Assembly (NCBI RefSeq): GCF_901827175.1
Contig: NZ_LR594662.1
Location: forward strand, 4,464,001-4,528,000
Direction of reading: 5' to 3'
Origin: Variovorax sp. RA8
GTDB taxonomy: Bacteria > Pseudomonadota > Gammaproteobacteria > Burkholderiales > Burkholderiaceae_C
DNA length: 64,000 bases
Shown: in pieces, positions 33,770-50,371 of the stretch
How positions within the stretch are numbered: the stretch's first letter is position 1
How the letters are laid out: each line of letters starts with the position of its first letter
The notes under the pieces: model-generated
Seen by the model: the letters and a program-made list of their open reading frames with translations, nothing else
What the model was told of the DNA's origin: nothing
Databases searched by the model: none
Position numbers and translations under genes: made by a program

Positions 33770-33843
33770 GGAGATTCCTTTGCTGCTTCAGGTGGGGGAA
33801 ATCAGTCGAAACCGTGAGGTGCGATAACAATCCGTACGCCACA

Positions 33844-34995
33844 TCAGGGCGCGGGGCCGTCGCCGGCAAAAGCGGGTTGCTCGGCGAACCGGGCCAAGTG
33901 ATGGTCGGTGTCGCCCAGCATCGACTCGATGACCGTGAGCCGCTTGACATGGTGGGAGACCGGCAGTTCGTCCATGAGCCCCATGCCGCCATGCAGTTGC
34001 ACGGCCTGCTGCGCAATGAACTTCATGGCCTGGCCGACGCGAACCTTCGCTGCCGAAGCCATGCGTCTGCGCTCCTGCGGATCGATGTCGGCCGACAGCG
34101 TGGCCGCCGCCAGCATCGCCACGGCGCGCGCCTGGGCAAGGTGGATGACCATGTCGACCATGCGATGCTGGAGAGCCTGAAAGCTGCCGATGGCAACGCC
34201 GAACTGCTGGCGGGTCTTGAGATACGCCAGAGTCTCTGTGTTCAGCATCTCCATGGCACCGACGGCTTCGCCGCACAGCAGCGCGATGCCGTAGTCTGTT
34301 GCCGCCTCCAGCATCTCCCAGCCGGCGCCCTCGGCGCACAGCAGGGACGATGCCGGGAGCTGGACGTTCGACAGCTCGACATGGGCCGCGCGAAGACCGT
34401 CGATGGTGCGATAGTCCCGAACATTCAGGCCCGGGGCGTCGCGAGGCACCAGACAGAGGGAAATGCCGCCGGTGTCGCGCCGCGCACCCGACGAGCGGGC
34501 GGACACGACGAGCTGGTGCGCCTGCGCGCCGTGCGTCACGACCGTCTTCACCCCGTTCAGCAGATAGCCGCCGTCGCTCGCTTTGGCCGTCGTCGCGATG
34601 TCGAAGAGATCGTGCCGGGATTGCCGCTCCCCCAGGGCACAAGCCAGCTTGAGCCGACCGGCGGCGATCTCCTCGAGCCGTGCCTCGTGCCGGCCGGACA
34701 GCATGAGAAACTGCGCGCCCATGGCGGTGGCGAAGCACGGCTCGACCACCAGGCCGCGCCCCAGTTCCTCCATCACGATGAACATGTCGAGGGCGCTCCC
34801 GTCGAAGCCGCCAACCGACGCCGGCATCGCCAGCGCCGTCACGCCCAGTTCGGCCAGGGCGTCCCAGGCTTTGCCGGACACGCCTTCGTCGCCGTGCACG
34901 ATCGCGCGGCGCTGCTCGAAGCCGTAGTCCTTTGCGATCCAGCGGCGCAGTGCATCGGCGAACTGCTGCTGTTCCTGTGTGTAGTCGAAGTTCAT
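33844..34995 (-). CDS. Acyl-CoA dehydrogenase (alpha type of a two-subunit pair)
   Basis: 383 residues with the acyl-CoA dehydrogenase fold: FAD-binding middle domain (ACALGERQSRHD region) and C-terminal helices with VQLHGGMGLMDELPVSHHVKR. The usual glutamate base at the C-terminal active-site position is not obvious, as in many members of heteromeric pairs. The adjacent gene at 35009 encodes a second dehydrogenase 13 bases upstream. Two such genes side by side, next to MaoC, DUF35 and thiolase genes, recall the heterotetrameric enzymes of steroid side-chain degradation. Confidence 0.87.
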   Translation of the reverse strand: MNFDYTQEQQQFADALRRWIAKDYGFEQRRAIVHGDEGVSGKAWDALAELGVTALAMPASVGGFDGSALDMFIVMEELGRGLVVEPCFATAMGAQFLMLSGRHEARLEEIAAGRLKLACALGERQSRHDLFDIATTAKASDGGYLLNGVKTVVTHGAQAHQLVVSARSSGARRDTGGISLCLVPRDAPGLNVRDYRTIDGLRAAHVELSNVQLPASSLLCAEGAGWEMLEAATDYGIALLCGEAVGAMEMLNTETLAYLKTRQQFGVAIGSFQALQHRMVDMVIHLAQARAVAMLAAATLSADIDPQERRRMASAAKVRVGQAMKFIAQQAVQLHGGMGLMDELPVSHHVKRLTVIESMLGDTDHHLARFAEQPAFAGDGPAP

Positions 34996-35008
34996 GTCGG
35001 CACGCTCC

Positions 35009-36205
35009 TCACAAGCCCAGCACCAGCTTGGCCACGACGTTCTTCTGGATCTCGTTCGAACCGCCGTAGATCGCGATCTTTCGATGGTTCAGGTACAGCG
35101 AGGCCAACGGGGCCGCGTCATCGTTGTCGGCGGCGCTGTGCATCCGCTCCCCGGTAAGAAACGCCGGGTCGAAAGGGGCGCCGTAGGGCCCCACTGCCTC
35201 GAGCATCAGCTCGGTGATGCCCAGTTGGATCTCGCTGCCCTTGATCTTCAGCATGGAGGCCTCCGGCGGGGGCGCCTTTCCGTGGCTCGTCTGGGCGATG
35301 GTCTTGCGCACGAGCATTTCGAGCCCCATGAGCTCGATCTCCAGCGAGGCCACCTTCGCGGCGAACACCGGATCGTTCAGCAGCGACTTGCCGCTCTTGT
35401 GCTGCTTGCGAGCGAGCTGCTTGAGAAGACCCAGCTCCCGCTTGGACCGGCCCACCGCAGCGATGTTCGTGCGCTCGTGGCTCAGCAGGTACTTGGCATA
35501 GGTCCAGCCCCTGTTCTCCTCGCCGATCAGGTTCTCGACGGGAACCTTGACGTTGTCGAAGAACACTTCGTTCACCTCGTGTTCCTCATCGAGCATGATG
35601 ATGGGCCGCACGGTGATTCCGGGGCTGTCCATGTCGATGAGCAGGAAGGAGATGCCCTCCTGCTTGCGCGCCTGCGCGTCGGTGCGCACGAGGCAGAAGA
35701 TCATGTTGGCGTACTGCGCCCAGGTGGTCCAGGTCTTCTGACCGTTCACGACGTAGTGGTCGCCCACGCGCTCGGCGCGCGTCTTGAGCGCGGCCAAGTC
35801 GGAGCCCGCGCCAGGTTCGGAGTAGCCCTGGCACCACCAGTCGTCGCAATTCAGGATGCGCGGCAGGTAGTGGCGCTTCTGCGCCTCGTTGCCGAAGGCC
35901 ATGATGACCGGCGCCACCATGTTGACTCCGAAGGGCATGATGATCGGCGCCCCAGCGGCGGCGCATGCCTCGTCCCAGATGTGGCGCTGCACCGCCGTCC
36001 AGCCCGTCCCCCCGTGCTCGACCGGCCAGTTGGCGCCGACCCAGCCCTGCGCGGCTACGATGCGATGCCAGCGCACGAAGTCCTCGCGGCCGAGCCGTTT
36101 GTGATGGCGCACCTTGGCTTGCAGGTCTGCGGGCAGGTTCTGGCGCAGCCAGGCGGCCACGGTCTCGCGGAAGGCAAGGTCCTGCGGGCTGTAGTTCAGA
36201 TCCAC
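35009..36205 (-). CDS. Acyl-CoA dehydrogenase (partner subunit)
   Basis: 398 residues. Clear motifs include WCQGYSEPGAGSDLAALKTRA (FAD-binding loop), GQKTWTTWAQYANMIF and IYGGSNEIQKNVVAKLVLGL at the C-terminus, where the flavin and the partner meet. It would introduce the alpha-beta double bond in the side-chain acyl-CoA together with the neighbouring dehydrogenase. It lies 46 bases after the SDR gene on the minus strand. Confidence 0.9.
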   Translation of the reverse strand: MDLNYSPQDLAFRETVAAWLRQNLPADLQAKVRHHKRLGREDFVRWHRIVAAQGWVGANWPVEHGGTGWTAVQRHIWDEACAAAGAPIIMPFGVNMVAPVIMAFGNEAQKRHYLPRILNCDDWWCQGYSEPGAGSDLAALKTRAERVGDHYVVNGQKTWTTWAQYANMIFCLVRTDAQARKQEGISFLLIDMDSPGITVRPIIMLDEEHEVNEVFFDNVKVPVENLIGEENRGWTYAKYLLSHERTNIAAVGRSKRELGLLKQLARKQHKSGKSLLNDPVFAAKVASLEIELMGLEMLVRKTIAQTSHGKAPPPEASMLKIKGSEIQLGITELMLEAVGPYGAPFDPAFLTGERMHSAADNDDAAPLASLYLNHRKIAIYGGSNEIQKNVVAKLVLGL

Positions 36206-36251
36206 GTTTTCTCCGTCGGTTCGGTTCTTTTTGAGGGCGCGGCGCGACTGG

Positions 36252-37169
36252 CTAGATGGGCGGCCAGTTGAAGACGTCCGCCGTCTCTTCCAGCGGCGTC
36301 AGCGCACCGCGCATGGCAGGCAGCGCGTGCTCGGCGATGTCCCGCGGCGTCCAGCCGTCGGACCGGTGCACGGACTTCACGGCACGCGGCTGGCTCATGA
36401 GCATGATCTCGTTGCCGCGCACGGCGAATACTTGGCCGTTGACATCCGCGGCCAGGTCGCTGGCCAGGAAGACTGCCAGCGGCGCGACCTTGGCCGGCGT
36501 CATCAGTTGTTGCTTTCGCTCGGCCGCCAGACGCTGGGCCTCGGTGGTGATGGGCACGGAGGCGACCATGCGCCCCCAGGCAAAAGGCGCGATGCAATTG
36601 GAGCGGACGCCCGAGCGCTGCATGTCGATGGCAATGGTGCGCGACAGGCCGACGATGCCCATCTTGGCGGCCGCGTAGTTGGCCTGCGCACGGTTGCCGA
36701 CCAGGCCGGAAGTGGAGGTCATATGGACGAAGGCACCACCTCCCTGCTCCTTGAAGAAGCCGGCCGCTGCGCTGCTGGTGTAGAAGGAGCCGTACAGGTG
36801 CACCTTCACCACGGCATCCCACTCTTCCTCGCTCATCTTGTGGAAGAAGCGATCCCGCAGGATGCCGGCGTTGTTCACGACGCAGTCGATCCGGCCGAAG
36901 GTGTCGACTGCCTGCTGAATCAGACGCTGTGCGCATTCGCGGGTGGCGATGGAGTCGGTGTTGGGCGCTGCTTCGCCGCCCGCTGCGCGGATTTCGGCGG
37001 CCACGGCTGCGGCCGGCCCGGTGTCGTTGCCCTCGCCGCTAAGCGATGCACCGATGTCATTGACGACAACGCGGGCGCCCGCCTGCGCGAGCTGCAGGGC
37101 GGTGTCGCGGCCGATGCCGCCACCGGCGCCGGTGACCACGGCCACCTTGCCAGACATGGATTCGTTCAT
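36252..37169 (-). CDS. Short-chain dehydrogenase (3-hydroxyacyl-CoA dehydrogenase-like, extended C-terminus)
   Basis: 305 residues from ATG 37169, which has GAGGA 7 bases upstream; the frame is open further but overlaps the MaoC gene. Motifs: TGAGGGIGRDTA, NNAGILRD, YAAAK. The NDIGASLSGEG loop and the longer C-terminal tail match the SDR domain of multifunctional peroxisomal-type beta-oxidation enzymes, usually linked to a MaoC hydratase. It is thus a probable 3-hydroxyacyl-CoA dehydrogenase working with the MaoC protein encoded 14 bases upstream. Confidence 0.87.
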   Translation of the reverse strand: MNESMSGKVAVVTGAGGGIGRDTALQLAQAGARVVVNDIGASLSGEGNDTGPAAAVAAEIRAAGGEAAPNTDSIATRECAQRLIQQAVDTFGRIDCVVNNAGILRDRFFHKMSEEEWDAVVKVHLYGSFYTSSAAAGFFKEQGGGAFVHMTSTSGLVGNRAQANYAAAKMGIVGLSRTIAIDMQRSGVRSNCIAPFAWGRMVASVPITTEAQRLAAERKQQLMTPAKVAPLAVFLASDLAADVNGQVFAVRGNEIMLMSQPRAVKSVHRSDGWTPRDIAEHALPAMRGALTPLEETADVFNWPPI

Positions 37170-37183
37170 GAATTCATCCTCGA

Positions 37184-38056
37184 TCATTGAAAACGTGCCC
37201 GCCCATGGCTGATCACCACGGCGTTGCGTGCGACAACATGGCCTTCGAGCGCCACGTGAGCGCCCTCGTCCCACATCCGGAATTCGACCTCCTCGCCCGG
37301 GTACAGGGGCAAAGAGAAGCGGGCGTCCAGCCCGACCAGCCGCTCGGCGTCGCCATTGGCGAACGCGCGGATGGCTGCGATGGCGGCAAAGCCGTAGGTC
37401 GCCAGGCCGTGCAGGATCGGCCGCGAAAAGCCCGCGCGCTGTGCAACCCGGGGGTCGATGTGCAACCTGTTCCTGTCGCCGCACAGGCGGTAGAGCAATG
37501 CTGCATCGGCGCGCACGCTGCAGCGTTCGTGCCGGTCAGGCGCGCGGGTGGGCATGGCCTCCAGCGCGGGCATTGGCGCATCGTCCAGCGCCAGGTCATC
37601 CGCACCACTCGCAGAGAAGCCACCGTCGCCGCGGCAGAAGAACGCTTGCCACGCATGGCCATAGCGCTCGCCGCCTTCGGACTGGAGGGTCTTGCACACC
37701 GTGATCAATGCGCCCTTGCCCGCCCCTTTGTCGACGACGCGGGTCACGCGAGAACTGCCGACCACCCGGCCCTGCGCGGGCAGCGGCCGTTCCAGCGCAA
37801 CGCGCTGTTCTGCGTGGACCAGGCGCGCGGAATCGATCTCCATCGACTTCTCGTCGCGCGCCCAGAAGCCGGGTGAGGCGATCACGCTCGCTATCGACGG
37901 CACGGCCACCTGGCCGACCTCGTCCACGAGCCGCAGCTGGCGCGCATCGAGCGGGTCTGACACGGCGCCGATAGCCAGCGCGTAGAGCGCGGCATCGTGG
38001 AGCGTGTAGTCATGAACAACGGTCCGGCTCCAAGCGCTGACTGCGTCGAGGTTCAT
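37184..38056 (-). CDS. MaoC-family enoyl-CoA hydratase (double hot-dog)
   Basis: 290 residues from ATG 38056, whose start overlaps the DUF35 stop (ATGA). The second hot-dog half carries the hydratase-2 motif GDRNRLHIDPRVAQRAGF, with the D and H dyad, followed by PILHGLATYG. The first half is the degenerate N-terminal hot-dog. It would add water across the enoyl-CoA double bond. In steroid side-chain systems MaoC and DUF35 proteins form one hydratase/aldolase complex with a thiolase-like protein; the gene order here is the same. Confidence 0.87.
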   Translation of the reverse strand: MNLDAVSAWSRTVVHDYTLHDAALYALAIGAVSDPLDARQLRLVDEVGQVAVPSIASVIASPGFWARDEKSMEIDSARLVHAEQRVALERPLPAQGRVVGSSRVTRVVDKGAGKGALITVCKTLQSEGGERYGHAWQAFFCRGDGGFSASGADDLALDDAPMPALEAMPTRAPDRHERCSVRADAALLYRLCGDRNRLHIDPRVAQRAGFSRPILHGLATYGFAAIAAIRAFANGDAERLVGLDARFSLPLYPGEEVEFRMWDEGAHVALEGHVVARNAVVISHGRARFQ

Positions 38057-38463
38057 GCGGCCGCGCCCGCGTCTTGCAGCACGAAGACTGGCACCCTGAC
38101 CTCGCCGGCGCGCCCGAACGCCACCCGCACGGCAGCGCCGACGGTCAGCCGCCCGGGTGCCGCGTCCACGATGTTGCTGAGGACGCGGAACCCCTCCTCC
38201 AGCTCGACGAACGCCAGCACCTGGCGGTCCGAGGCTGGCCCGGTCACGGTGTAGGAGTAGATGCGGCCTTGGCCGCTTGCCTCGGCCCAATCCACCTCGA
38301 CCGTGAAGCAGTGCGGGCAGCTGCGGCGCGGGTAGTAGTGGACCTTGCCGCAGTCGCGGCAGCAGCCGTAGAGCAGCCGGCCCTGGGCCGCTGCCGCAAA
38401 GAAGGCTTCGTTTTCGGGATTGGTGGCGGGCGCCGGCCACTGGCGGTCGTCAGAGAGAAACAT
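38053..38463 (-). CDS. DUF35 OB-fold protein with zinc ribbon
   Basis: 136 residues from ATG 38463. The N-terminal zinc ribbon is intact, with the pairs CRDC and CPHC about 14 residues apart. The OB-fold follows: GRIYSYTVTG, VLAFVELEEGFRVLSNI. DUF35 proteins sit on thiolase-like partners and are required for their activity in aldolase complexes. It is 4 bases downstream of the thiolase-like gene and overlaps the MaoC gene by 4 bases, so all three are translationally linked. Confidence 0.85.
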   Translation of the reverse strand: MFLSDDRQWPAPATNPENEAFFAAAAQGRLLYGCCRDCGKVHYYPRRSCPHCFTVEVDWAEASGQGRIYSYTVTGPASDRQVLAFVELEEGFRVLSNIVDAAPGRLTVGAAVRVAFGRAGEVRVPVFVLQDAGAAA

Positions 38464-38467
38464 GGGA

Positions 38468-39634
38468 TCAATTCCGTCCGAGGATGAGCGTGGCGCTGCC
38501 ATGGCGGGCACCTAGGTTGCCACCCGTGCCTTGCGCGAGGGCGATCTCGCAGCCGGGAACCTGCACCTTCGGATGCGCTTCGCCGCGCAACTGGCGCACC
38601 GCCTCGATCACCTTGGTGATGCCGCCGCGGTTGGCCGGGTGGTTGTTGCACAACCCGCCGCCGTCGGTGTTGAAGGGCAGGCGGCCGACGCCGGAGATCA
38701 GGTTCCCGTCCTGCACGAAGCGCCCGCCCTCTCCTTTGCGGCAGAAACCGAGGTCTTCGAGTTGGAGCAGCACGGTGATGGTGAAGCTGTCGTAGATGGA
38801 TGCGTACTGGATGTCCGCCGGCGCCACCCGGGCCTCGGCAAAGGCTTGCGGGCCCGATTGCGCCGCGCCGGTGACCAGCAGGCCTTCGTCCCATCCGCCA
38901 TATGCGCCGCGCACCGCTTCGCCGGCGCCCAGCACGTTGATCACGGGGCGCGCGAGGGTGCGGGCGATCTCGGGCCGGGTCACGACCAGTGCCCCGCCGC
39001 CATCGCTGACCACACAGCAGTCCAGGCGATGCAGAGGGTCTGCAACCAGCGGTGAATTGACGACTTCTTCGACGGTGACCGGCTGGCGCAACATGGCGTG
39101 GGGGTTGTACTGCGCATGGGTGGAGGCCGCGACCTTGATCCAGGCCAGCTGCTCTGGCGTGGTGCCGTATTCATGCATATGGCGACGCGCCACCAGCGCG
39201 TAGCCGGCCAGCGTGTTCATGCCGAAGGGTTGCTCGAAGGCCACGTCGGGCGAAGTCGCGCCGTATTCGCGCGGCTTGGCGGTGGAAGGGTCGGTGCGCG
39301 GCTTGCCGGCCAGCGTGATCAGCGCCACATTGCACTTGCCTGCCTCGATGGCCTGGGCGGCGTGCGCCACGTGGATGAGGTAGGAAGACCCACCCGTTTC
39401 CGTGGTGTCCAGGTGCTTCACCCGCAGGCCCATGTAGTCCAGCATGGACAGCGGCCCCAGGCCCGGCGCGTCGCCCGCGCAGAAATACGCGTCCACGTCC
39501 CGCATGGAAAGCCCCGCGTCGGCCAGCGCCCCGCGCGCGCACTCGGCGTGCAACTGGGCAACCGAATGATGCTCGGCCTTGCGCAAAGGATGCTCGAAGG
39601 CGCCGGCGATGCAGGCTTTTCTCTTGATCGTCAT
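38468..39634 (-). CDS. Thiolase-like protein (SCP-x/Ltp2 type) lacking the nucleophilic cysteine
   Basis: 388 residues from ATG 39634; a longer frame exists, but its added part is basic and low-complexity. The fold is that of SCP-x thiolases, for example VASIYDSFTITVLLQLEDLGF-like segments and NTDGGGLCNNHPANRGG. At the position of the nucleophile (CSSG in the paralogue at 16460) it reads TETGGSSYL, around residues 79-86, with glycines where the cysteine should be. Proteins of this kind paired with DUF35 act as retro-aldolases in steroid side-chain cleavage; I infer the same chemistry here. It is the first gene of the operon, 158 bases from the operator element at 39792. Confidence 0.82.
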   Translation of the reverse strand: MTIKRKACIAGAFEHPLRKAEHHSVAQLHAECARGALADAGLSMRDVDAYFCAGDAPGLGPLSMLDYMGLRVKHLDTTETGGSSYLIHVAHAAQAIEAGKCNVALITLAGKPRTDPSTAKPREYGATSPDVAFEQPFGMNTLAGYALVARRHMHEYGTTPEQLAWIKVAASTHAQYNPHAMLRQPVTVEEVVNSPLVADPLHRLDCCVVSDGGGALVVTRPEIARTLARPVINVLGAGEAVRGAYGGWDEGLLVTGAAQSGPQAFAEARVAPADIQYASIYDSFTITVLLQLEDLGFCRKGEGGRFVQDGNLISGVGRLPFNTDGGGLCNNHPANRGGITKVIEAVRQLRGEAHPKVQVPGCEIALAQGTGGNLGARHGSATLILGRN

Positions 39635-39791
39635 CGGCAGGCCCCCGAACGGTTGCCGCAAGCGTCCGGAACGCGAGCGCGCGCGTGCCCGGCCGGATGG
39701 CTGCGGAATGTCGGAGCCGCAAACACGGCGGCGCCAGGGAATGGCGAAGGCCAGGGTGAACCCATTTTTCGTTCTCGCATCAAAGTTCAAA

Positions 39792-39816
39792 GTTCTGCCT
39801 GAAAGAATGACGTTCT
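39792..39816 (-). promoter_or_regulatory. Three-half-site operator element, copy A
   Basis: Read on the minus strand: AGAAC, 3 bases, ATTCTT, 5 bases, CAGAAC. The layout is identical to the copies at 40725 and 43539. It lies in the 328-base region between the thiolase-like gene (minus) and gntR (plus), 158 and 147 bases from their starts. No good -35 box is evident at the spacing seen in the other copies, so it may act on either promoter. The rest of this region is AT-rich and has no gene. Confidence 0.6.
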
Positions 39817-39962
39817 GTATTCAGGTTGTTATTCTGATCTGAACTCAGAGAAAAATGCAATAGGGTTAAGATCTAAAAGTCGTCACACAGGCCCCACACC
39901 GCCGCAGCGCGGGTGCTTGCCCTTCCGTTGCGCCGAGCCGTTGCCGTCCCACCCAAGTGAAC

Positions 39963-40673
39963 ATGTCCATCTCCGCCGCCCAAGATCGCCCGTCCGCCAC
40001 CGAGAAGGTCAGCACCGCCGTCTACGATGCGCTTCGCTCCAAAGCCATCACGCACGCCTTCCTGCCCGGCGAGCGTCTGAACGAAGGCGAATTGGCCACG
40101 GAACTTCATGTCTCGCGAACACCGCTTCGCGAAGCGCTCAATCGGTTGACAACCGAAGGCTTTCTCCGCGCCGTGCCAGGAAAAGGCTTCTATTTCAAGG
40201 AACTCGACCCGAAAGAACTCTTTGATCTGTACGAACTGCGCGCGATGCTTGAACTCACCGCGGCGCGACTGGCAACCGAGCGGGCAAGCACGGAACAGAT
40301 CGATTCGCTGATGGCGAGCACCGATGAAGCAGCCAACGGGATGGAGTGCTCAAAGACTGAACTGATCGCACAGGATGAGCAGTTCCACGAACGCCTTGTC
40401 GCACTGGCGGGCAACACGGAAATGTCGCGGGTCCTGCACAACATCAATGCGCGCATCCAATTCGTGCGCTGGATCGAGGTCGGCGAACCCACCCGCAGGG
40501 CCGCGCACCACTCCCACAAAGCCATCGCCCAAGCCTTGCAGAGGCGCGATGCCGAAGCCTGCGAGGCGCTGTTGGGCAAACACATTCGGCGACGGCAAGA
40601 CGACATCATCGAAGCAGCCCACGCACGCATGGCCCAGTTGTTCACGGAGCGTGCGGCGCTTCACAGGCGCTGA
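39963..40673 (+). CDS. GntR-family regulator (FCD subfamily)
   Basis: 236 residues from ATG 39963 (GTG 39957 possible). The N-terminal winged helix has LNEGELATELHVSRTPLREALNRLTTEGFL. The all-helical C-terminal FCD domain begins DLYELRAMLELTAARLA and has metal-site-type histidines in QFHERLVALAGN and HHSHKAIAQAL. FCD regulators often respond to carboxylic-acid effectors. It is the first gene of the plus-strand cluster, upstream of nicD by 169 bases, and divergent from the CoA operon. It may regulate that operon, itself or the ring genes. Confidence 0.87.
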   Translation: MSISAAQDRPSATEKVSTAVYDALRSKAITHAFLPGERLNEGELATELHVSRTPLREALNRLTTEGFLRAVPGKGFYFKELDPKELFDLYELRAMLELTAARLATERASTEQIDSLMASTDEAANGMECSKTELIAQDEQFHERLVALAGNTEMSRVLHNINARIQFVRWIEVGEPTRRAAHHSHKAIAQALQRRDAEACEALLGKHIRRRQDDIIEAAHARMAQLFTERAALHRR

Positions 40674-40699
40674 CGCTCAAAGCTGCGCCCGCCGAACCA

Positions 40700-40729
40700 T
40701 TGACAATGAGAGCTGCATTGGAATAGAAT
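40700..40729 (+). promoter_or_regulatory. Promoter in front of nicD-nicX
   Basis: TTGACA at 40700-40705, an 18-base spacer, then TAGAAT at 40724-40729, a sigma-70 type promoter with five of six -10 matches. The -10 box contains the first half-site (AGAAT) of operator copy C, so a bound regulator would block polymerase. The nicD start is about 110 bases downstream. Confidence 0.6.
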
Positions 40730-40749
40730 TCAATTCTTCCAGAAAGAAT
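40725..40749 (+). promoter_or_regulatory. Three-half-site operator element, copy C
   Basis: AGAAT, 3 bases, ATTCTT, 5 bases, AAGAAT. The last two half-sites form a perfect 6-bp inverted repeat with a 5-base centre, and the first pair an AGAAT/ATTCT repeat with a 3-base centre. AGAAT recurs after exactly 20 bp, about two helical turns. It overlaps the -10 box of the nicD promoter. Confidence 0.65.
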
Positions 40750-40842
40750 ATTGAGCTCAGTTCTTGCGCAGGCGTCGACCGAACCGTTCGCATGGTCGAT
40801 GCAGCGCACGCGGCGCATCGTTGTTGGCTGTCAGGAAAAGCT

Positions 40843-41670
40843 TTGACTCTTACTTTGGGCGCCCACATCAGGGCCAATGGCATCCGCCAGCATTACCTGC
40901 ATTGCCCGGGGGCCGGCCCGCGCGTGCTGATCGTTCCAGGCATCGTGAGCCCCGCCATCCTTTGGCGACATGTGGGTGAGTGGCTTCAAGCCACTCACGA
41001 CTGCTTTGCGCTGGATGTACGCGGCCGGGGCCTGTCGGAGACGGGCGTGCACCTCGATTACGGCCTGGACGCCTGCGCGGCTGATCTGGTGGGATTCGTT
41101 CGCACCATGGATCTTGCCCCGCTGACCCTCGTCGGGCACTCGATGGGGGCGCGCATTGCGGCGAAAGCGGCTATCACCGCCCCGGAGTTGTTCGATTCAC
41201 TGGTGCTGCTGGACCCCCCGACGAGCGGGCCTGGCCGCCGACCGTACCCAGTGCCCAAATCCCGCACGCTCGGGTTGCTGCGATCCGCGCAGCGTGCAGA
41301 AGCCCCCCCCGCCGTCCATGCCCCGGAATCACAGCCGTGGCCAGACGAACTGCTGCGGCTGCGCAGAGAGTGGCTTCCGACGTGTGACGAGCGGGCCGTG
41401 CATGCCGCCTATGACGATTTCCATGCCCAGGATCTGTTCGCCGACTTGGCCGGGACGCAGATGCCCGTGTCGCTGATTGCGGCGGGCACCGGCGACGTTG
41501 TGTCTGATGCGGACATCGAGGAGATGCGCCGCGTGCACGCTGGCCTGCGGGCCGTTCGGCTGGCCGGCGTCGGCCATCAGATGCAGGCAGAGAACTTTGC
41601 CGCGTTCAGGCAAGCGCTGGGCGCGATGTTGAACAAGCAGGAACCCGAAACCGAAAGAGGCGATTCATGA
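40843..41670 (+). CDS. nicD: N-formylmaleamate deformylase (alpha/beta hydrolase)
   Basis: 275 residues if started at TTG 40843, which has AGGA 6 bases before it. ATG 40792 would add 17 residues with no ribosome site. With the TTG start the triad falls at S100 (VGHSMGAR), D124 (LLDPPTSGPGRR) and H245 (GVGHQM), practically the numbering of P. putida NicD. The segments NGIRQHYL, DVRGRGLSETG, LDYGLDACAADL and EWLPTC are also shared with it. NicD removes formate from N-formylmaleamate, the product of NicX. It overlaps nicX by 4 bases. It is the only deformylase gene in the window. Confidence 0.85.
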   Translation: MTLTLGAHIRANGIRQHYLHCPGAGPRVLIVPGIVSPAILWRHVGEWLQATHDCFALDVRGRGLSETGVHLDYGLDACAADLVGFVRTMDLAPLTLVGHSMGARIAAKAAITAPELFDSLVLLDPPTSGPGRRPYPVPKSRTLGLLRSAQRAEAPPAVHAPESQPWPDELLRLRREWLPTCDERAVHAAYDDFHAQDLFADLAGTQMPVSLIAAGTGDVVSDADIEEMRRVHAGLRAVRLAGVGHQMQAENFAAFRQALGAMLNKQEPETERGDS

Positions 41671-42716
41671 AAGTGGATGCGGAAATCTTGGAACTTTTCA
41701 CGCGCGAGCTAGCACTGTGCGGCGTGAAGGCAGGCGAGTCGGTGGTCGTGCTCACCGCCGACGATGAGTGGGCTGAGAACGCGCACGCCTTCATGGCGGC
41801 GGCAGGGCAATTGGGCGCGACGACCTTCAACCTCAACGTGCGCCGCGGCCAATCCAATGCGGTGGGCGTACAGGGCCGCCATCCGCTCGTGGGCAACGCG
41901 CTAGCGATGCAAACGCTCAAGTCGGCGACCATGGTGATCGACATGGTCGGCCTGCTCTTTTCGCGCGAGCAGGCGGAGATTCAGGCCGCCGGCGTGCGCA
42001 TCCTGCGCGTGATGGAGCCCTTCCACGTGCTCAAGCAGATGTTCCCGACCGAGGACCTGCGCCGCCGCGTGGAGTATGCCAAGGGCCTGCTCGAGCGCGC
42101 CCGCCAGCTACGTTTTACCTCGGCCGCGGGGACCGACATCGTCTACCGGCTCGGCCAGTACCCGGTGATCTCCGAGTACGGCTACACCAACGAGCCGGGA
42201 CGCTGGGACCATTTCCCCTCGGGCTTCTCGTTCACGCAGGGCGACGACGGGGCGGTGGACGGGGTGGTGGTGCTGCAGCCAGGCGACATCCTCTGCGCGT
42301 TCAAGCAATACGTGCAGTCGCCGGTGACGCTGCGCGTGGAAAAAGGGATGGTGGTCGACATCTCCGGCGACGGCCTGGACGCGCAACTCATCGAGAGCTA
42401 CATCGACAGCTTCCACGATCCCCGCGCCTACGCGATCTCGCACATCGGCTGGGGACTCAACGAAAAGGCGCGCTGGTATCAGTTCTCGGTCACGCGCCAG
42501 CTCCCGGCCGAGCACGTCATGAATGCGCTGTCGTTCTACGGGAACGTCCTGTTCTCGCTCGGGCCCAATCTCGAACTCGGTGGTACCAACGACACCGCTT
42601 GCCACCTCGACTTGCCGATGCGCGGTTGCAGCCTCTGGCTTGACGACACGCAGATCCTGCGCGACGGGGATGTGATCCATCCCGAAATGCAAGTTCAGGC
42701 TTCGACGCAGCCCTAA
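41667..42716 (+). CDS. nicX: 2,5-dihydroxypyridine 5,6-dioxygenase (second copy)
   Basis: 349 residues. Iron-ligand candidates line up with those of the first copy: E170 (ISEYGY), H259 (SHIGWG), H313 and D315 (CHLDLP). NEPGRWDHFPSGF is conserved, but the N-terminal 90 residues differ strongly from the copy at 1257, so the two are not a recent duplication. It is translationally coupled to nicD. It may prefer a substituted dihydroxypyridine; the sequence does not settle this. It is convergent with the iclR gene, only 4 bases away. Confidence 0.85.
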   Translation: MKVDAEILELFTRELALCGVKAGESVVVLTADDEWAENAHAFMAAAGQLGATTFNLNVRRGQSNAVGVQGRHPLVGNALAMQTLKSATMVIDMVGLLFSREQAEIQAAGVRILRVMEPFHVLKQMFPTEDLRRRVEYAKGLLERARQLRFTSAAGTDIVYRLGQYPVISEYGYTNEPGRWDHFPSGFSFTQGDDGAVDGVVVLQPGDILCAFKQYVQSPVTLRVEKGMVVDISGDGLDAQLIESYIDSFHDPRAYAISHIGWGLNEKARWYQFSVTRQLPAEHVMNALSFYGNVLFSLGPNLELGGTNDTACHLDLPMRGCSLWLDDTQILRDGDVIHPEMQVQASTQP

Positions 42717-42720
42717 GCCG

Positions 42721-43485
42721 TCATGGCGGCGATCCAGCTGCCTGGTGCTCGAGCCGTGCTGGATCGCCTCCAAGGCGACGCGTCAGGTCGGCTGCTGCAC
42801 GCAACACGGCTTGCTTCATGCCGGGTAGATGATCATTCGAAAAACGCGCCGCAGGCCCTGATATTGCCAGCGCACCGCGCAGGCTGTCTCGCGGGCCGAA
42901 AACCGGTGCTGAGATCGCGCCGATGTCGGGCTCACGCTCTCCCACAGTCACGATGCAGGGGTTGGTCGGAAAGCTTTCCGGCGGCGTGACGGTGCGATCA
43001 AAGCCTGCAAGCACGCGGCCGGCGGCACCCCGGTCGAGCGGCAGCAGGTCACCTGTGCGGATGTGATCGCGGATCGAACGTGGCGAATCCACGCGGAAAA
43101 GGCAAACGCGAAGATTGCCTTCGCGGGTGAAGAAGGAAGCGCCCTCCTCCGTTTCCTGCACCAGGCGGCGCAGGATCGGCGGCACATGGTCATCCAGCCT
43201 CAAGGACGCCTGGTAGAGCCCGCCCCAATGCAACAGCATTGAGCCGAGTTGGTAGCTGCCGTCGTCCAGCCGCACGATGCAGTGTTCTTGCACCAGCGTG
43301 CTAATGAGCCGAAGGATCGTGCTCTTGTACATCCCCGTGCGCAATGCGATCTCGTTGAGGCTCAACGAAGTGTCGCTCGTATGGAACGCGTTGAGGATGG
43401 CAAACGCTCGCTCCACAGCAGCGACGCCGCTGGCCTTATCGGACGGCAAACCAGACTTTCGTTCTGTTTTTGATCCTGGCGACAT
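42721..43485 (-). CDS. IclR-family transcriptional regulator
   Basis: 254 residues. The winged helix-turn-helix (about residues 20-80) has ERAFAILNAFH and LNEIALRTGMYKSTILRLISTL, and the C-terminal IclR effector domain has SVVERAPDIGA-like sheets around DRGAAGRVLAGF and EPDIGAISAPVFG. IclR proteins commonly control aromatic catabolism (PcaR, PobR), and PcaU is known to bind a site built of three repeats. It is divergent from the Bug-hydroxylase operon with operator copy B between them. It is the most likely protein to bind the three-half-site element; this is inference. Confidence 0.87.
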   Translation of the reverse strand: MSPGSKTERKSGLPSDKASGVAAVERAFAILNAFHTSDTSLSLNEIALRTGMYKSTILRLISTLVQEHCIVRLDDGSYQLGSMLLHWGGLYQASLRLDDHVPPILRRLVQETEEGASFFTREGNLRVCLFRVDSPRSIRDHIRTGDLLPLDRGAAGRVLAGFDRTVTPPESFPTNPCIVTVGEREPDIGAISAPVFGPRDSLRGALAISGPAARFSNDHLPGMKQAVLRAAADLTRRLGGDPARLEHQAAGSPP

Positions 43486-43513
43486 GAATGGCTCAGTTAG
43501 GCAAAGAAAGTTC

Positions 43514-43543
43514 TTGACATTATATCGTACTCTCTAACAGAAT
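43514..43543 (+). promoter_or_regulatory. Promoter in front of the Bug-hydroxylase operon
   Basis: TTGACA at 43514-43519, an 18-base spacer and CAGAAT at 43538-43543. The spacing and the overlap of the -10 box with an AGAAT half-site are the same as at nicD. The Bug start codon is about 88 bases downstream. Confidence 0.55.
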
Positions 43544-43563
43544 ATCATTCTTCTAGACAGAAC
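43539..43563 (+). promoter_or_regulatory. Three-half-site operator element, copy B
   Basis: AGAAT, 3 bases, ATTCTT, 5 bases, CAGAAC. The spacing equals that of copies A and C, and ATTCTT is identical in all three. It sits between iclR (minus, start 43485) and the Bug gene (plus, start 43631), so it could mediate autoregulation of iclR as well as control of the hydroxylase operon. Confidence 0.65.
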
Positions 43564-43630: not shown

Positions 43631-44596
43631 ATGCGTCTATGGAAAAAGTGGTTGGCGGCCTTTTGCGCCATTGGTCTTGCAACTGCCGTGCATGCACAGA
43701 CCTTTCCGAACAAGACGATCACGATCGTCGCGCCGTATCCGCCGGGAGGAGCGACTGACCTCTATGCACGGGCTGTCGCTAATGGCCTCGCAGAGTGGGG
43801 GCAGGCGACTGTGGTTGAGAACCGCGCAGGAGCCTCCGGAATCATCGGCGCTGAACATGCATCGCGCCAGCCCGCCGATGGCCACACGCTGCTCATCGGT
43901 GCCTCGTCGATGTTCTCGGTTCTGCCCTTGCTGAGCGAGCGCATGAAGACGGTCTACAAGCACATCGAACCGGTCTCGCTGCTGGGCCTGAATCCCTCCT
44001 ACGTGGTGGTGCCGCAGACGTTGCCGGTCAACACGATCCAAGAACTGATCGCCTATCTCAAGGCCAACCCCGGAAAGTTCGGCTATGCCTCCGCCGGCAT
44101 CGGCACCTCGCAGCACGTCTTCATGGAACTGTTCAAGCAACGCGCCGGTGTGGATGTGTTTTCCGTCCAGTACAAGGGCAGCGGCCCGATGGTGGTGGAT
44201 CTGATCGCCGGCCGCACGGTCATGGCGATCGAGCAGGGTCCCGCCGTTCTCACCCACATCAAGTCCGGAAAGCTCAAGGCGCTGGCCGTGACGACCGCGA
44301 AGCGGTCCATCGCCCTGCCCGATGTGCCCACACTGTCCGAAACGGTGCTGCCTGGCTTCGAGGCGGTGACCTGGTTCGCGCTCTATGCGCCTGCGGGAGT
44401 GCCGAAGAACGTGACCGACAAACTGGCCTCGCAGGTCGCCAAGACCATGGCATCGGCCGCGGTGAAGACCAGTCTCGGCGCAGTGGGGGTGGAGCCGGCA
44501 TCGAGCACGCCCGCCGAACTCGTCAAGCGGCAGGCCACCGAGACAACTATGTGGCAGGAAGTGATCACGCGCTCCAACATCAAGCTCGAAGACTGA
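43631..44596 (+). CDS. Bug-family tripartite tricarboxylate receptor (6)
   Basis: 321 residues. Signal peptide ends VHAQ; the Bug motifs are ITIVAPYPPGGATDLYARA and VENRAGASGIIGAE. AGGAG precedes ATG 43631. It is the first gene of the operon that continues with the molybdenum hydroxylase, so it may bind the pyridine carboxylate that the hydroxylase attacks. Only 19 bases separate it from the large-subunit gene. Confidence 0.88.
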   Translation: MRLWKKWLAAFCAIGLATAVHAQTFPNKTITIVAPYPPGGATDLYARAVANGLAEWGQATVVENRAGASGIIGAEHASRQPADGHTLLIGASSMFSVLPLLSERMKTVYKHIEPVSLLGLNPSYVVVPQTLPVNTIQELIAYLKANPGKFGYASAGIGTSQHVFMELFKQRAGVDVFSVQYKGSGPMVVDLIAGRTVMAIEQGPAVLTHIKSGKLKALAVTTAKRSIALPDVPTLSETVLPGFEAVTWFALYAPAGVPKNVTDKLASQVAKTMASAAVKTSLGAVGVEPASSTPAELVKRQATETTMWQEVITRSNIKLED

Positions 44597-44615
44597 GACA
44601 GGCTCATTGGTGCCC

Positions 44616-46925
44616 ATGAATACCGCGATGCAAGAACCGCTGCTGCCGCTCCAACAGGAACCGCGTGCCGACTACCTGCAGAAGGTGACCGGCACGGCAA
44701 CCTATGCCAGCGATGTGGAGGTCACGGGCATGCTGCACGGCAAGATTCTGCGCAGCACGGTACCTCATGCGTTCATCCGGAGCATCGATGCGAGCGCTGC
44801 GCTGGCCATGCCAGGCGTGGTGGCCGTACTCACCGGAGACGACCTGAAAGACCTGCCCGGGACCGCGATCCGATGGGGGCTGTCGATGCGAGACCGACCG
44901 GTGATTGCCATCGGCAAGGTGCGCTACGTGGGCGACCCAGTGGCGGCGGTCGCGGCGGTCGACGAAGCGACCGCCGAAGAAGCGCTCGATGCCATTCTGG
45001 TCGACTACGATGCGCTGCCCTTCGCCACCACGGCCGAGGAGGCGATGGCGCCGGGCGCCGCTCTGGTCCACGAGGACATGGAAACCCTCAAGGATTTCTA
45101 CTTCCGCGGCGAGGCGACGCCCGTGGCGGGGACCAACCTGTTCCAGCAGTACCACTACGAGAGCGGAGACGTCGAGCAAGCCTACGCGCAGGCACACCGC
45201 GTCTTCGAGGACAGCTTCAAGTTCCCGATGGTGTTCCATTTCGCGATGGAGCCGCACGTGTGCATCGCGCACTGGAAGCCCGGCTCGCTGGAGATCTGGA
45301 GCGGCGGACAGACGCCCACGGCCATCCAGCGCGTGTGCTCCGAGATTCTTGGGGTTCCTCTGGCCTGCGTGCGCGTGCACTCGCCTTACGTCGGCGGCGG
45401 ATTCGGCGGCAAGGCATCCGTCAAGATCGACCCGCTGGTCGCTGCGCTCTCCTGGAAGGCGAAAGCGCCTGTGCGCGTGTGCCTTTCCATCTCCGAGTCC
45501 ATGCTGACCTGCCGGCGCCTGGACGCCGAGGTGTCACTGAAGACGGCGGTGGACAGTCAGGGGCGCATTACCGCCAAGTCGGTACGCGCGGTGCTCAACG
45601 GCGGCGCATACGCAGACACGGGACCGGCCATCGCGATCAAGGCGGCCATCCGGGCGATCGGCCCGTACCACATCCCAAACCTGAAGCTGGAGGCCATCGG
45701 CGTCTATTCCAACACCGTGCCCGGCGCGGCCTTCCGTTCCATCGGCGGCCCACAAGCCGTGTGGGCGACCGAGTCGCAGATGGACATCATGGCCGCTGCG
45801 TTGGACCTCGATCCGGTCGCCTTCCGCATGGCCAACATGGCCGACAAAGGCCAGACCATCAAGCCGGATCTGCGGCCGCTCGACGTCGACATGCGCAACT
45901 CCCTGCGCCAGGCGCTGCGGGCGCTCGAAGAACTCCCCGAGCCCAAGCACTCCGGCCGCCGCGGACTGGGCGTCGCCGTGGGCGCCACCGATCCCGGCAT
46001 CATGCCCATCGGCGGTGCCATCGTGCGCTTGCGTGCCGATGGGTCGGTCAATGTTTCGGCCAATACCGTGGAGATTGGCCAGGGCAGCCGGGGCGTCCTG
46101 CGCATCATTGCAGCCAAGGCCCTCAAGCAGCCGCTGCGAATGATCGCCGTGGCCGAGCCGGACACGCTGCAGGCACCCTACGACTGGGGCACGGGTGCGA
46201 GCCGCTCCACCGTGATCATCGGCCTGGCCGTCCAGATGGCCTGCGACGAGGTGATCGGCCAAGTCGTTGAGACTGCGGCCGCGGTCTTGGGCGGGTCGCC
46301 GGAGGACTACCGGCTCGAGGAGGGCCGCGTCGAAGGGCCGGGGGGCGGCGTTCCTTTTATCGAACTCCTGCGCCAGTTCAATGGCATGGCCGCAGGTGAA
46401 TTCCTCGGCGTAGGGCGCGTCAATTCCACCACCAAGAACGGCGCCTTCAAGCAGGCGCCGCTGTTCTGGGAAACGGGCGCGGGCGCCTGCGAGATCGAAG
46501 TCGACGAAGGCACCGGCGCCATCAAGGTGCTGCGTGTGGGCGGCGCTGCCGACCTGGGTTACGTGGTGAACCGCAAAGCTGCGGAAGGCCAGGACGAAGG
46601 CGCCATGGTCATGGGGCTCGGCCACACGCTCTCCGAAGAGTACGTTTACGAAGATGGTCAGGTCGTCAACGGCACGATGTTCGACTACAAGGTTCCGATG
46701 TTCGAGGACGTGCCTCAGCACATGGGCACCGCGCTCATCGAAAGCGGCGATGGCCCGGGGCCTTTCGGCGCGCGCGGCGGCGGCGAAGGCGCCATCCTTC
46801 CTGTGGCACCCGCCGTGGCGAACGCGCTCTACCAAGGCTGGGGCGTGCGGATCAAGGAGTTGCCGCTGACTCCCGAACGCGTCTGGCGCGCGCTTCAGGC
46901 CGCCAAGATCGAAAAGCAAGACTGA
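44616..46925 (+). CDS. Molybdenum hydroxylase large subunit (xanthine dehydrogenase / CoxL family)
   Basis: 769 residues from ATG 44616 (ATG 44628 possible). Molybdopterin-cytosine-dinucleotide binding motifs include SPYVGGGFGGKAS and FRSIGGPQAVWATESQMD, and the catalytic glutamate is in GARGGGEGAILPVAPA near the C-terminus. The AYxCSFR loop of CO dehydrogenase is absent, so this is not CoxL proper. With the FAD and 2Fe-2S subunits it would hydroxylate a carbon next to the ring nitrogen, as nicotinate or picolinate dehydrogenases do, taking oxygen from water. Oxidation of an aldehyde is a second possibility in this family. Confidence 0.88.
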   Translation: MNTAMQEPLLPLQQEPRADYLQKVTGTATYASDVEVTGMLHGKILRSTVPHAFIRSIDASAALAMPGVVAVLTGDDLKDLPGTAIRWGLSMRDRPVIAIGKVRYVGDPVAAVAAVDEATAEEALDAILVDYDALPFATTAEEAMAPGAALVHEDMETLKDFYFRGEATPVAGTNLFQQYHYESGDVEQAYAQAHRVFEDSFKFPMVFHFAMEPHVCIAHWKPGSLEIWSGGQTPTAIQRVCSEILGVPLACVRVHSPYVGGGFGGKASVKIDPLVAALSWKAKAPVRVCLSISESMLTCRRLDAEVSLKTAVDSQGRITAKSVRAVLNGGAYADTGPAIAIKAAIRAIGPYHIPNLKLEAIGVYSNTVPGAAFRSIGGPQAVWATESQMDIMAAALDLDPVAFRMANMADKGQTIKPDLRPLDVDMRNSLRQALRALEELPEPKHSGRRGLGVAVGATDPGIMPIGGAIVRLRADGSVNVSANTVEIGQGSRGVLRIIAAKALKQPLRMIAVAEPDTLQAPYDWGTGASRSTVIIGLAVQMACDEVIGQVVETAAAVLGGSPEDYRLEEGRVEGPGGGVPFIELLRQFNGMAAGEFLGVGRVNSTTKNGAFKQAPLFWETGAGACEIEVDEGTGAIKVLRVGGAADLGYVVNRKAAEGQDEGAMVMGLGHTLSEEYVYEDGQVVNGTMFDYKVPMFEDVPQHMGTALIESGDGPGPFGARGGGEGAILPVAPAVANALYQGWGVRIKELPLTPERVWRALQAAKIEKQD

Positions 46926-46935
46926 GAAACACACC

Positions 46936-47778
46936 ATGGACTTTCGAATCGACACCACGCTCCCGGCCACTGCGGCTCAGCTGTGGGCCATCTTCTTCGA
47001 TGTGCAGCGTGTCGCGGCACTCATTCCCGGTTGCGAGAACGTCACCGAAGTCGAGCCGCTCAAGGAGTTTTCTGCGGTACTCAAGCAGAAAATCGGACCG
47101 TTCAAGCTGGAAGTGCCGACGCGCATCGTGCTGGAGTCACACACGCTGGAGCGGCAGGTGGTGCTTGCCGCCGCCGGCCGCGACAAGTTCACGGGGACGA
47201 CCATCGACGTTCGCATGAAGGTGGACCTCGATGAGCAGAACACGAGAGACACGCCCTCGTGCCGCCTGGGGATCGATGCGCAGATGCAGGTGGCGGGCCG
47301 CCTGGCATCGCTGGGCTACCCGGTCGTCAAGAAGCGTTCCGAAGAACTCTTCTCGGAGTTCGAGAAGCGCCTGCGCAATGAGTTGGTTCAATTCGACCCG
47401 GCCCGAGTGCTCGAATCGGCAGCCCCCGTCGATGCGGCAACGGGCCAGGAGCGTCCTGCAGCCGCAACGCCGGCCCCCGCCGCCCAGGTACCGGCCCCAG
47501 TGGCGGGCTCTGCCGGCGTGCCGCCGGCCTCGCAGGTCGCGGCTGCTCCCTACGCCCCGCCCACCCAGATGCCGCCATGGCAGCCGGCGCCGCCAACGCC
47601 TGCCCCCTATCGGCCGCGGCGCGTCGAGCTGGTGCTGGTGTGGCCGCGCGTGGGCATCAGCCTGGCGGTCGGCTTCACGGTGGCGTTCGTTGCGGCCGCG
47701 CACGGTCAATCCGACTGGTGGTGGATCGTGGCTCCGGCACTTGGCGCAGCCGCAGGACTGGCACCGAGACAAGACTGA
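46936..47778 (+). CDS. CoxG-like SRPBCC protein with C-terminal membrane segment
   Basis: 280 residues. The first 150 residues form the CoxG/SRPBCC fold, with FFDVQRVAALIPGCENV. A Pro/Ala-rich linker follows, and then a hydrophobic C-terminus (about residues 235-278, around ISLAVGFTVAFVAAA) that would anchor the protein to the membrane. CoxG recruits CO dehydrogenase to the membrane in Oligotropha; here it probably does the same for the pyridine hydroxylase, connecting it to the respiratory chain. Its stop overlaps the next ATG. Confidence 0.83.
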   Translation: MDFRIDTTLPATAAQLWAIFFDVQRVAALIPGCENVTEVEPLKEFSAVLKQKIGPFKLEVPTRIVLESHTLERQVVLAAAGRDKFTGTTIDVRMKVDLDEQNTRDTPSCRLGIDAQMQVAGRLASLGYPVVKKRSEELFSEFEKRLRNELVQFDPARVLESAAPVDAATGQERPAAATPAPAAQVPAPVAGSAGVPPASQVAAAPYAPPTQMPPWQPAPPTPAPYRPRRVELVLVWPRVGISLAVGFTVAFVAAAHGQSDWWWIVAPALGAAAGLAPRQD

Positions 47779-48641
47779 TGCGCCCGCCCCGTTTCGAATT
47801 GCACCGGCCAACTGCGTTGGCACAGGCGATCGCGCTGAAGGCCGAGTTCGGCGATGCCGCGGCTTTCCATGCCGGCGGCACCGAACTGCTCATCGCACTG
47901 AAGGCGCGCGTCCTGAGCTACGAGCACGTGATCGACATCAAGCGCGTGGACGAGCTGCGCGGCATCCGGTTGCGAAGCGATGGCACCTTGTCGATCGGCG
48001 CGCTCTGCACGCACCACGCCATCGCCAACGATCCGCTGGTGCGCGAGCTGCTGCCGGGATACGCGCACCTCAGCGACCATGTTGCGAACATCCGCGTGCG
48101 CATGGCCGGCACGATCGGCGGCGTCTTGTGCTTCGGCGAGCCGCATGCCGACGCGCCCACGATGCTCTGCGCGCTCGACGCCTGGGTGGTGTTGGCCGGC
48201 CCGCAGGGCCAGCGGGAAGTCCCGTCGCGCGAGTTCCAGGAGGGCGAGTTCGCCACCGTGCGGCAGGACGACGAGATTCTGGTCTCGATCGAGATCGCGC
48301 CGCAGTCGCCCGGCACGCGCAGCGCCTATCGCTGCTTCGGACACACGGAACGGCCCGCCGTCGGCGTGGCCGCGGTCTGGTCGAGCGACGGATGGCAGCG
48401 GCTGAGTCTGTGGGCGGGTGCGATCACCGCGTCGCCCACCCGGCTGGCGCAGGCCGAAGAGGCTGCGGCCCGGCTCGCGCCGGACCTGCCGCCCGAGGAA
48501 ATCTGGCGCGCGCTGGCACCTGCGGTGACAGCCGATGCGGCGGGCATCGATGCCCATGACGATCTGCACGGCGGGGCCGATTACAAGCGCCACCTCGTCA
48601 CCGTGCTGGCCCAACGCGCCATCGAGGCTTGCCTGCCATGA
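47778..48641 (+). CDS. Molybdenum hydroxylase FAD-binding (medium) subunit
   Basis: 287 residues. Two FAD-contact motifs are visible: AGGTELLIALK (about residues 36-46) and the TIGG of RMAGTIGGVLCFGEPHAD. A CO-dehydrogenase-type C-terminal domain follows. It passes electrons from the iron-sulphur subunit to the acceptor. It begins inside the coxG stop codon and overlaps the 2Fe-2S gene by 4 bases, so the three are made in fixed ratio. Confidence 0.88.
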   Translation: MRPPRFELHRPTALAQAIALKAEFGDAAAFHAGGTELLIALKARVLSYEHVIDIKRVDELRGIRLRSDGTLSIGALCTHHAIANDPLVRELLPGYAHLSDHVANIRVRMAGTIGGVLCFGEPHADAPTMLCALDAWVVLAGPQGQREVPSREFQEGEFATVRQDDEILVSIEIAPQSPGTRSAYRCFGHTERPAVGVAAVWSSDGWQRLSLWAGAITASPTRLAQAEEAAARLAPDLPPEEIWRALAPAVTADAAGIDAHDDLHGGADYKRHLVTVLAQRAIEACLP

Positions 48642-49150
48642 ACCCGGAACGAAAAGCCATCCCGATCACGCGCGTGGACATGGTGGTCAACGGAGCCGCA
48701 GTGTCCATCGACGTGGAGCCGCGCGAGATGCTGGTCGACGTCCTGCGCGACCAACTTCACCTCAAGGGCACGAAGCGCTCCTGCGACGTGCAGGTCTGCG
48801 GCGCCTGCACCGTGCTGGTGGACGGCATGCCCACCTCCAGTTGCACGACGCTGTGCGCAGATGCGCACGAACGCAAGGTCACGACGATCGAAGGCCTGGC
48901 CCGGGGCAAGGTGCTCGACCCGGTGCAACGGGCCTTCATCGCACACGGCGCACTGCAATGCGGCTTCTGCACGCCGGGAATGATCCTAGCCGTCAAGTCG
49001 CTCCTCGCGGCCGACCCGAGCCCGTCGGACAAGACCCTGCGCCACTACCTGCGCGGCAACATCTGCCGGTGCACGGGCTACGTCAAGATCATTGAGGCCA
49101 TTCATGACCTCGTTCATCACCCTGAGAAATACCAATCGGAGAACGCATGA
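48638..49150 (+). CDS. Molybdenum hydroxylase 2Fe-2S (small) subunit
   Basis: 170 residues from ATG 48638. The plant-ferredoxin-type cluster motif is CDVQVCGACTVLVDG followed by a further Cys in SSC, and the second cluster is in CGFCTPGM and CRCTGY. Both clusters are complete. The stop overlaps the monooxygenase start by 4 bases. Confidence 0.9.
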   Translation: MNPERKAIPITRVDMVVNGAAVSIDVEPREMLVDVLRDQLHLKGTKRSCDVQVCGACTVLVDGMPTSSCTTLCADAHERKVTTIEGLARGKVLDPVQRAFIAHGALQCGFCTPGMILAVKSLLAADPSPSDKTLRHYLRGNICRCTGYVKIIEAIHDLVHHPEKYQSENA

Positions 49151-50367: not shown

Positions 50368-50371
50368 CGCC

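Follow-up and report, generated by a model that had tools for sequence, protein, structure and literature searches.

Background

NicR and NicS, BpsR and PicR regulate the catabolism of pyridine acids; they belong to the MarR or TetR families and have operators other than the element described here. This element is an array of short half-sites, 25 bp in its core, found three times in a 64,000-nucleotide stretch of the Variovorax sp. RA8 genome (contig NZ_LR594662.1, positions 4,464,001 to 4,528,000; the whole stretch is called the window below). The copies lie at pyridine-ring genes, at an operon of coenzyme A (CoA) dependent enzymes and beside a gene for an IclR-family regulator. On sequence evidence, the element is very probably the operator of this IclR protein, which would repress three operons until an inducer releases it.

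Searching the literature for IclR regulation of nicotinate or 2,5-dihydroxypyridine genes returned one earlier mention, without an operator, in the available text of a 2014 genome note (PMC4256190). There the nicotinate cluster of Bacillus niacini is reported to contain an IclR-family gene, possibly a repressor, for which an operator would be expected. That case, which can be likened to ours by description alone, differs in that the organism is a Firmicute, no operator is identified and the action of the regulator on the cluster is called unclear.

Arrays of alternating boxes are themselves a published class of IclR sites. The main text of Suvorova and Gelfand (2021; PMC8222616) reports predicted three-box alternating sites for 32 orthologous groups and tandem sites, with centres 18-22 nt apart, for 94 groups. 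It also associates COG1545, COG2030 and COG3181 with aromatic catabolism, and proposes alternative dimer pairings for the family, for which the authors say that validation by experiment is required. By its layout the present element would belong to this class, having three alternating boxes of which one pair shows the group 2 spacing (about N3) and the other that of group 1 (about N7). Unlike the class, its AGAAY letters deviate, by eye, from the printed consensuses, a fourth box is frequent in its relatives, and it accompanies pyridine genes. Neither "nicotin" nor "pyridin" occurs in the main text of PMC8222616, a statement that does not extend to the supplementary tables, and the IclR orthologous group may already be among the 181 of that study.

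According to the same text, the operators of PcaU, PobR and HmgR combine a palindrome with an external third half-site that is needed for PcaU binding. A first-pass annotation of the window, made from the sequence alone, had drawn the comparison with PcaU. The box layout makes it apt, but the letters differ: PcaU-type half-sites read GTNCG/CGNAC, against AGAAY/RTTCT here. The protein differs as well. Membership of the window's IclR in the PcaR/PcaU/PobR subfamily was considered and rejected, as it scores 79.4 bits with TIGR02431, below the curated cut-off of 284.75. Another IclR relative, TtgV (2xrn, 2xro), was found by sequence and has a DNA-bound structure and tetramer binding according to PMC8222616; it is an efflux regulator with a different operator. 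PheR, as described in the available text of PMC13273656, resembles our proposal in being an IclR repressor with a 44-bp footprint over the start site, and differs in its core (GCAACG) and in controlling a phenanthrene operon.

Three copies of the element in the window

The strict pattern AGAAY-N3-ATTCTT-N6-AGAAY has three matches without mismatch in the 7.42-Mb genome, all inside one 3.8-kb stretch of the window (copies A, B and C, Table 1). The outer boxes are 20 bp apart in every copy. All three were found exactly where the first-pass annotation had placed them, with the same strands and layout, and the genome-wide check for scatter that it had proposed left the strict element confined to this stretch. 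Its statement that an IclR gene lies beside "copy B" needs correction: the gene adjoins the third copy (43539), so the statement fits only under another labelling order. The ATTCTT core is indeed identical in the three copies, but in relatives the last T is not conserved and the first A may be G. The generalised element is accordingly AGAAY-N3-RTTCT-N7-AGAAY, three half-sites alternating in direction.

Allowing up to three mismatches, six matches were found in the window against 0.31 expected, and this number was reached in none of 100 shuffles. A weight matrix was trained on 16 sites from eight orthologous clusters, with the window excluded. Its three top-ranking sites in the 64 kb were copies C, A and B, with 38.1, 34.8 and 32.0 bits in that order; no score in 20 simulated windows exceeded 18.4 bits. 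The training sites had been picked as near matches to the window consensus, and the matrix is thus not fully independent of the window. The probability that the three copies recur by chance is negligible, given the shuffles, the simulated windows, the genome scan and the conservation described below.

Conservation in orthologous clusters

Eight orthologous clusters were found by means of the window's IclR, to which their own IclR proteins are 73-81% identical. The comparison of upstream regions, also proposed in the first-pass annotation, recovered the element in the gap that separates iclR from its divergent neighbour in all eight (three perfect, five with one mismatch). The divergent gene encodes a Bug protein in seven of them; in the eighth, L043, which has no Bug gene, it encodes a molybdenum (Mo) hydroxylase, and the one-mismatch match beside iclR reads in the opposite direction. 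At nicD the element is present in each of the seven clusters holding this region, perfectly in six and with two mismatches in one.

The gntR gene is flanked by copies A and B, which makes the GntR protein a second local candidate for reading the element. In the clusters reaching beyond nicD (seven, L043 being excluded because it ends in nicD), gntR was found only in L041, from Bordetella genomosp. 13; in L040 a distant homologue of GntR (76.6 bits) is encoded about 3 kb further out. The other six, together with a Variovorax boronicumulans plasmid cluster (L102) in which no gntR was found over 30.5 kb, keep the sites or degraded arrays. The element was found at none of the 11 loci of GntR homologues scanned, none of them more than 48% identical, and its matches across the family sit at IclR genes. 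It is therefore very improbable that GntR reads the element. The sites are kept without gntR, and 24 of the 26 found in the family outside the window lie at a single IclR clade (see below), so that the IclR protein is the best-supported reader. This agrees with the first-pass annotation, which had named the local IclR as prime candidate.

L041 is also the sole one of these clusters with the CoA operon. It keeps all three copies, the third being perfect and located at the thiolase gene. Matches on plasmids were found in 148 records, from which six regions were retrieved. On the V. boronicumulans plasmid (L096/L102) the CoA operon, with a thiolase 92% identical to that of the window, stands beside the same IclR and pyridine genes. 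The joint regulon of CoA operon and pyridine genes that had been proposed from the window alone gains from these loci, as the element recurs at the CoA operon in L041 and, degraded, in L102; the CoA operon thus appears, from sequence, to have joined the IclR regulon. In L102 (NZ_CP138497.1, 74000-104500, on a 938-kb plasmid) the CoA operon is found together with the pyridine genes and IclR, their order rearranged, which suggests transfer as a unit. Among the other thiolase-orthologue loci the element was found in none of the 29 scanned (49 thiolase matches; 30 loci scanned, the window's own included).

A stretch of about 56 bp that is conserved between the two gntR-bearing clusters, those of the window and L041, adjoins copy A on its gntR side (Table 1). 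With copy A excluded, its local alignment score against L041 was 24, the maximum of 200 shuffles being 15. It was not found in the gntR-less L102, where the scores on the two strands were 12 and 14.

Distribution in the family and the IclR clade

Of the 349 family genomes, 25 contained the generalised pattern and two the reversed pattern used as a control. Apart from the three copies in the window, and with overlapping matches merged, the 25 genomes contain 26 sites. An IclR gene lies within 1.5 kb of 24 of them, where 0.32 would be expected from the 450 PF01614 matches in these genomes.

The window's protein has both IclR domains (HTH_IclR 47.3 bits, cut-off 22; IclR_C 52 bits, cut-off 24). 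We placed it in a tree of 76 rows that omits duplicate loci as well as L012 and L022, which lack an IclR. The own-genome match L083 was swapped for the protein of its neighbour, and 18 distinct outside proteins were taken from the 44 PF01614 matches in the genome. The 56-row clade of the window's IclR took in every element-linked IclR protein, 41 whose element is perfect and 10 whose element is a near match (Shimodaira-Hasegawa-like approximate likelihood ratio test, SH-aLRT, 82; 96 once L063 was added), and the 18 distinct other IclR proteins of the same genome, counting L063, fell outside it. Every one of the 24 proteins from the family scan lay within the clade; these had been found via the DNA pattern rather than by protein likeness. 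The recognition helix starts with YKST in 49 of the 51 element-linked proteins and HKST in the other two; YKST was found in none of the 18 outside proteins. No element was found at the locus of L063, whose IclR lies just outside the clade.

The element is not unique to the pyridine regulon. Under the generalised pattern the genome has a fourth perfect match, C1:5957585-5957609, adjoining the gene of a second IclR of the same clade (C1:5957697-5958389). This copy (L007; L103 9586-9610) lies between the second IclR and an HMGL-like gene, next to which is a CoA-transferase III gene. Cross-talk with the pyridine regulon is possible. We consider it distinctly unlikely that the second protein shares or takes over the operators of the window, so that the regulon would be cross-wired. 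It does belong to the same clade, with a YKST helix and a perfect generalised operator, but each of the eight clusters has an orthologue of the window's IclR, by means of which they had been found, and the core letters differ, ATTCT in the window against GTTCT at the second site.

Box architecture

In the arrays the half-sites AGAAY and RTTCT alternate with spacers of exactly 3 and 7 bp, giving a period of 20 bp, or two helical turns. Flanks were analysed in 37 loci plus the window, amounting to 50 rows and 42 distinct sites; eleven further Thalassospira loci, the plasmid loci, L045, L058 and L059 were left out. A left fourth box (RTTCT, seven bases before the first box, with at most one mismatch) was found at 17 of the 42 distinct sites (25 of 50 rows), compared with 3% of other flank offsets. 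On the right there was no excess (1 of 50 rows). Eight of the 42 sites, three of which belong to a single genus, are full four-box palindromes of 37 bp, and distant loci of Thalassospira and Stutzerimonas are among them. Copy C of the window has the fourth box with one mismatch; at A and B it has four and three mismatches on the left and two each on the right.

The first-pass annotation had defined the element by "three half-sites". There are three perfect boxes, but as the fourth box is enriched in relatives we dropped the strict definition. Seen in this way, the element is an alternating N3/N7 array, often of four boxes in relatives.

Promoters and proposed mechanism

At the predicted nicD and Bug promoters, one box of the array coincides with the -10 hexamer, an overlap that points to repression and had gone unmentioned in the first-pass annotation. 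Beside iclR, TTGACA-N18-nAGAAT is conserved in 11 of 11 clusters. The nicD sites of other clusters have a box at the likely -10 position (by eye) and, except in L037, lack the TTGACA-N18 geometry, their -35 matches being weaker. No common distance to a -35 element was found across the operators of the clade: among 48 rows, TTGACA with at most one mismatch is 25 bp away in five and 39 bp away in 10. The operator of the paralogue in the same genome begins immediately behind TTGACA.

Because the array spans the -10 hexamer and the start site, its layout is that of a repressor site, and repression by occlusion is the most likely mode of action. Copy C lies 42-78 bp ahead of the iclR start codon, which makes autorepression likely as well. 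Without inducer, two IclR dimers, together a tetramer, would sit on the same face of the DNA and cover -10 and start site; such a placement of two dimers is proposed because both the 20-bp period and the tandem spacing given in the main text of PMC8222616 fit it. Three operons would thereby be repressed: the first from the Bug gene through Mo-hydroxylase and monooxygenase to the amidohydrolase, the second nicD-nicX, and the third comprising thiolase, OB-fold protein, MaoC, short-chain dehydrogenase/reductase (SDR), acyl-CoA dehydrogenase, Bug and ligase. Copy C would also mediate the autorepression of iclR. A pyridine substrate or pathway intermediate would bind the C-terminal domain of IclR and release the protein, and ring cleavage would then be induced jointly with the CoA-dependent removal of a side chain.

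The same protein might bind the element as a ligand-dependent activator or dual regulator, in the manner of PcaU or PobR; activators and dual regulators do occur among the IclR proteins named in the literature (main text of PMC8222616; BhcR). This is unlikely here, as a box lies within the -10 hexamer behind TTGACA at both B and C, and as the IclR repressor PheR protects the region from +23 to -21 (available text of PMC13273656).

Several observations weigh against the assignment of the element as an IclR repressor site. IclR proteins can activate too, and a consensus -35 is missing from the majority of nicD sites in relatives. Copy A has just two counterparts, one perfect (L041) and one degraded (L102), and a weak candidate promoter. 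In L102 the arrays are degraded at all three places, where they are best read as RGAAY; the array beside iclR on a second Variovorax plasmid (L097) is degraded too, and these two plasmid sites beside iclR gave no match to the AGAAY boxes at up to two mismatches. Five members of the clade have no element (at most two mismatches) within 450 bp of the gene. The clade support of 82 is moderate, and the outside rows come from one genome. Two family sites lack a neighbouring regulator: in G220 the 19 kb surrounding the perfect element (L104, 9439-9463) yielded no IclR, and in G327 the nearest listed IclR is about 11 kb off on the same contig. In a sample of the class outside the family the pattern was at background (5 of 271 genomes, the reversed control also giving 5) and IclR was found at none of the five loci carrying it, so that the pattern alone is uninformative outside the family.

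Under the proposed operator function, an IclR regulator of pyridine-ring catabolism would gain a candidate target in the DNA together with a predicted way of acting on it. Ring cleavage would be linked to a CoA side-chain operon of unassigned substrate, which would narrow the search for the substrate to pyridines with an acyl-type side chain. The points of most use are the naming of a reader, the way in which the array lies over the -10 box, the fourth box, and the regulon shared by the CoA operon and the pyridine genes. The three-box and near four-box operators also form a natural series within one regulon, a direct test of the alternative-dimerisation idea put forward in the main text of PMC8222616. 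Much more tentatively, we suggest that a single IclR may read the array in two registers through alternative dimer pairings, as three boxes at A and B and nearly four at C. Occupancy and the order of induction would then differ among the ring-attack, ring-opening and side-chain operons, and the regulon might form a mobile unit dedicated to some undescribed pyridine compound whose side chain is activated by CoA.

Genes and features of the locus

The features of the locus are listed in Table 1. The gene order of the CoA operon and the names OB-fold, SDR and Bug were taken from the annotated counterpart L096.

Table 1. Positions in the window of the operator copies, candidate promoters and genes.
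Feature	Position	Strand	Remarks
Operator copy A	39792-39816	-	AGAACGTCATTCTTTCAGGCAGAAC; all three boxes perfect; the thiolase start is about 160 bp downstream
Further box beside copy A	39784-39788		two mismatches
Operator copy B	40725-40749	+	AGAATTCAATTCTTCCAGAAAGAAT; nicD-nicX promoter; first box lies within the -10 hexamer TAGAAT
Operator copy C	43527-43563 (25-bp core 43539-43563)	+	AGAATATCATTCTTCTAGACAGAAC; between iclR and the Bug gene
Fourth box of copy C	43527-43531	+	GTACT, one mismatch
Predicted promoter of Bug-Mo-hydroxylase operon	43514-43543	+	TTGACA, 18 bp, CAGAAT
Predicted nicD promoter	40700-40729	+	TTGACA, 18 bp, TAGAAT; same geometry in L037
Candidate thiolase promoter, weak	39831-39860	-	TTGCAT, 18 bp, CAGAAT; proposed by eye; L041 has a similar one, its spacer 17 bp
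Conserved stretch beside copy A	39817-39872		candidate gntR promoter or GntR site
iclR	42721-43485	-	Pfam HTH_IclR and IclR_C; predicted reader; recognition helix MYKSTILRL from residue 52
gntR	39963-40673	+	GntR and FCD domains; rejected as reader of the element
Thiolase/lipid-transfer-type protein, first gene of CoA operon	38468-39634	-	NCBIfam PRK08142, 707.8 bits (cut-off 462); 4u4e
Rest of CoA operon	31115-38470	-	OB-fold, MaoC hydratase, SDR, two acyl-CoA dehydrogenases, Bug, acyl-CoA ligase
nicD-like alpha/beta hydrolase	40792-41670	+	start ATG 40792 or TTG 40843
nicX, 2,5-dihydroxypyridine 5,6-dioxygenase	41667-42716	+	best solved relative 7cn3, E 2.5e-82
Bug, Mo-hydroxylase subunits, SRPBCC (CoxG-like), flavin adenine dinucleotide (FAD) monooxygenase, NicF-like amidohydrolase	43631-51088	+	one predicted operon; counterpart annotated in L096

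A 2,5-dihydroxypyridine route at the locus is well supported by these gene assignments, with nicotinate as a possible source. The NicF-like amidohydrolase is an isochorismatase-family protein. The FAD monooxygenase matched 6-hydroxynicotinate 3-monooxygenase (8uiq/5eow) with E 1.2e-44, but tropone 2-monooxygenase scored higher (7.8e-67). The CoA operon probably serves in side-chain stripping. It too encodes OB-fold, MaoC and TctC/Bug proteins, the types that we take COG1545, COG2030 and COG3181 to represent. The genome also encodes, at C1:5727524-5728687, another thiolase of this family, which shares 76% identity with the one in the window; the genome scan shows no perfect element close to it.

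Some further occurrences of the pattern were recorded. The element in G220 follows an open frame that resembles an acyl-CoA ligase gene, about 50 bp past its 3' end. G327 (L105) carries two copies, at 8944-8968 (perfect) and 11895-11919 (one mismatch), before two similar genes that seem by eye to be Rieske-type and near genes for Bug and TctA-like transporters. A looser scan of the Variovorax genome with RGAAY boxes returned four single places, three outside the window and one at its left end (C1:4465590), and a four-box array at C1:2115944-2115980 (L141, L142). The latter has the same layout with mostly GGAAC-type boxes and is about 250 bp from an IclR match (2115196-2115702), which suggests a common layout with differing box letters.

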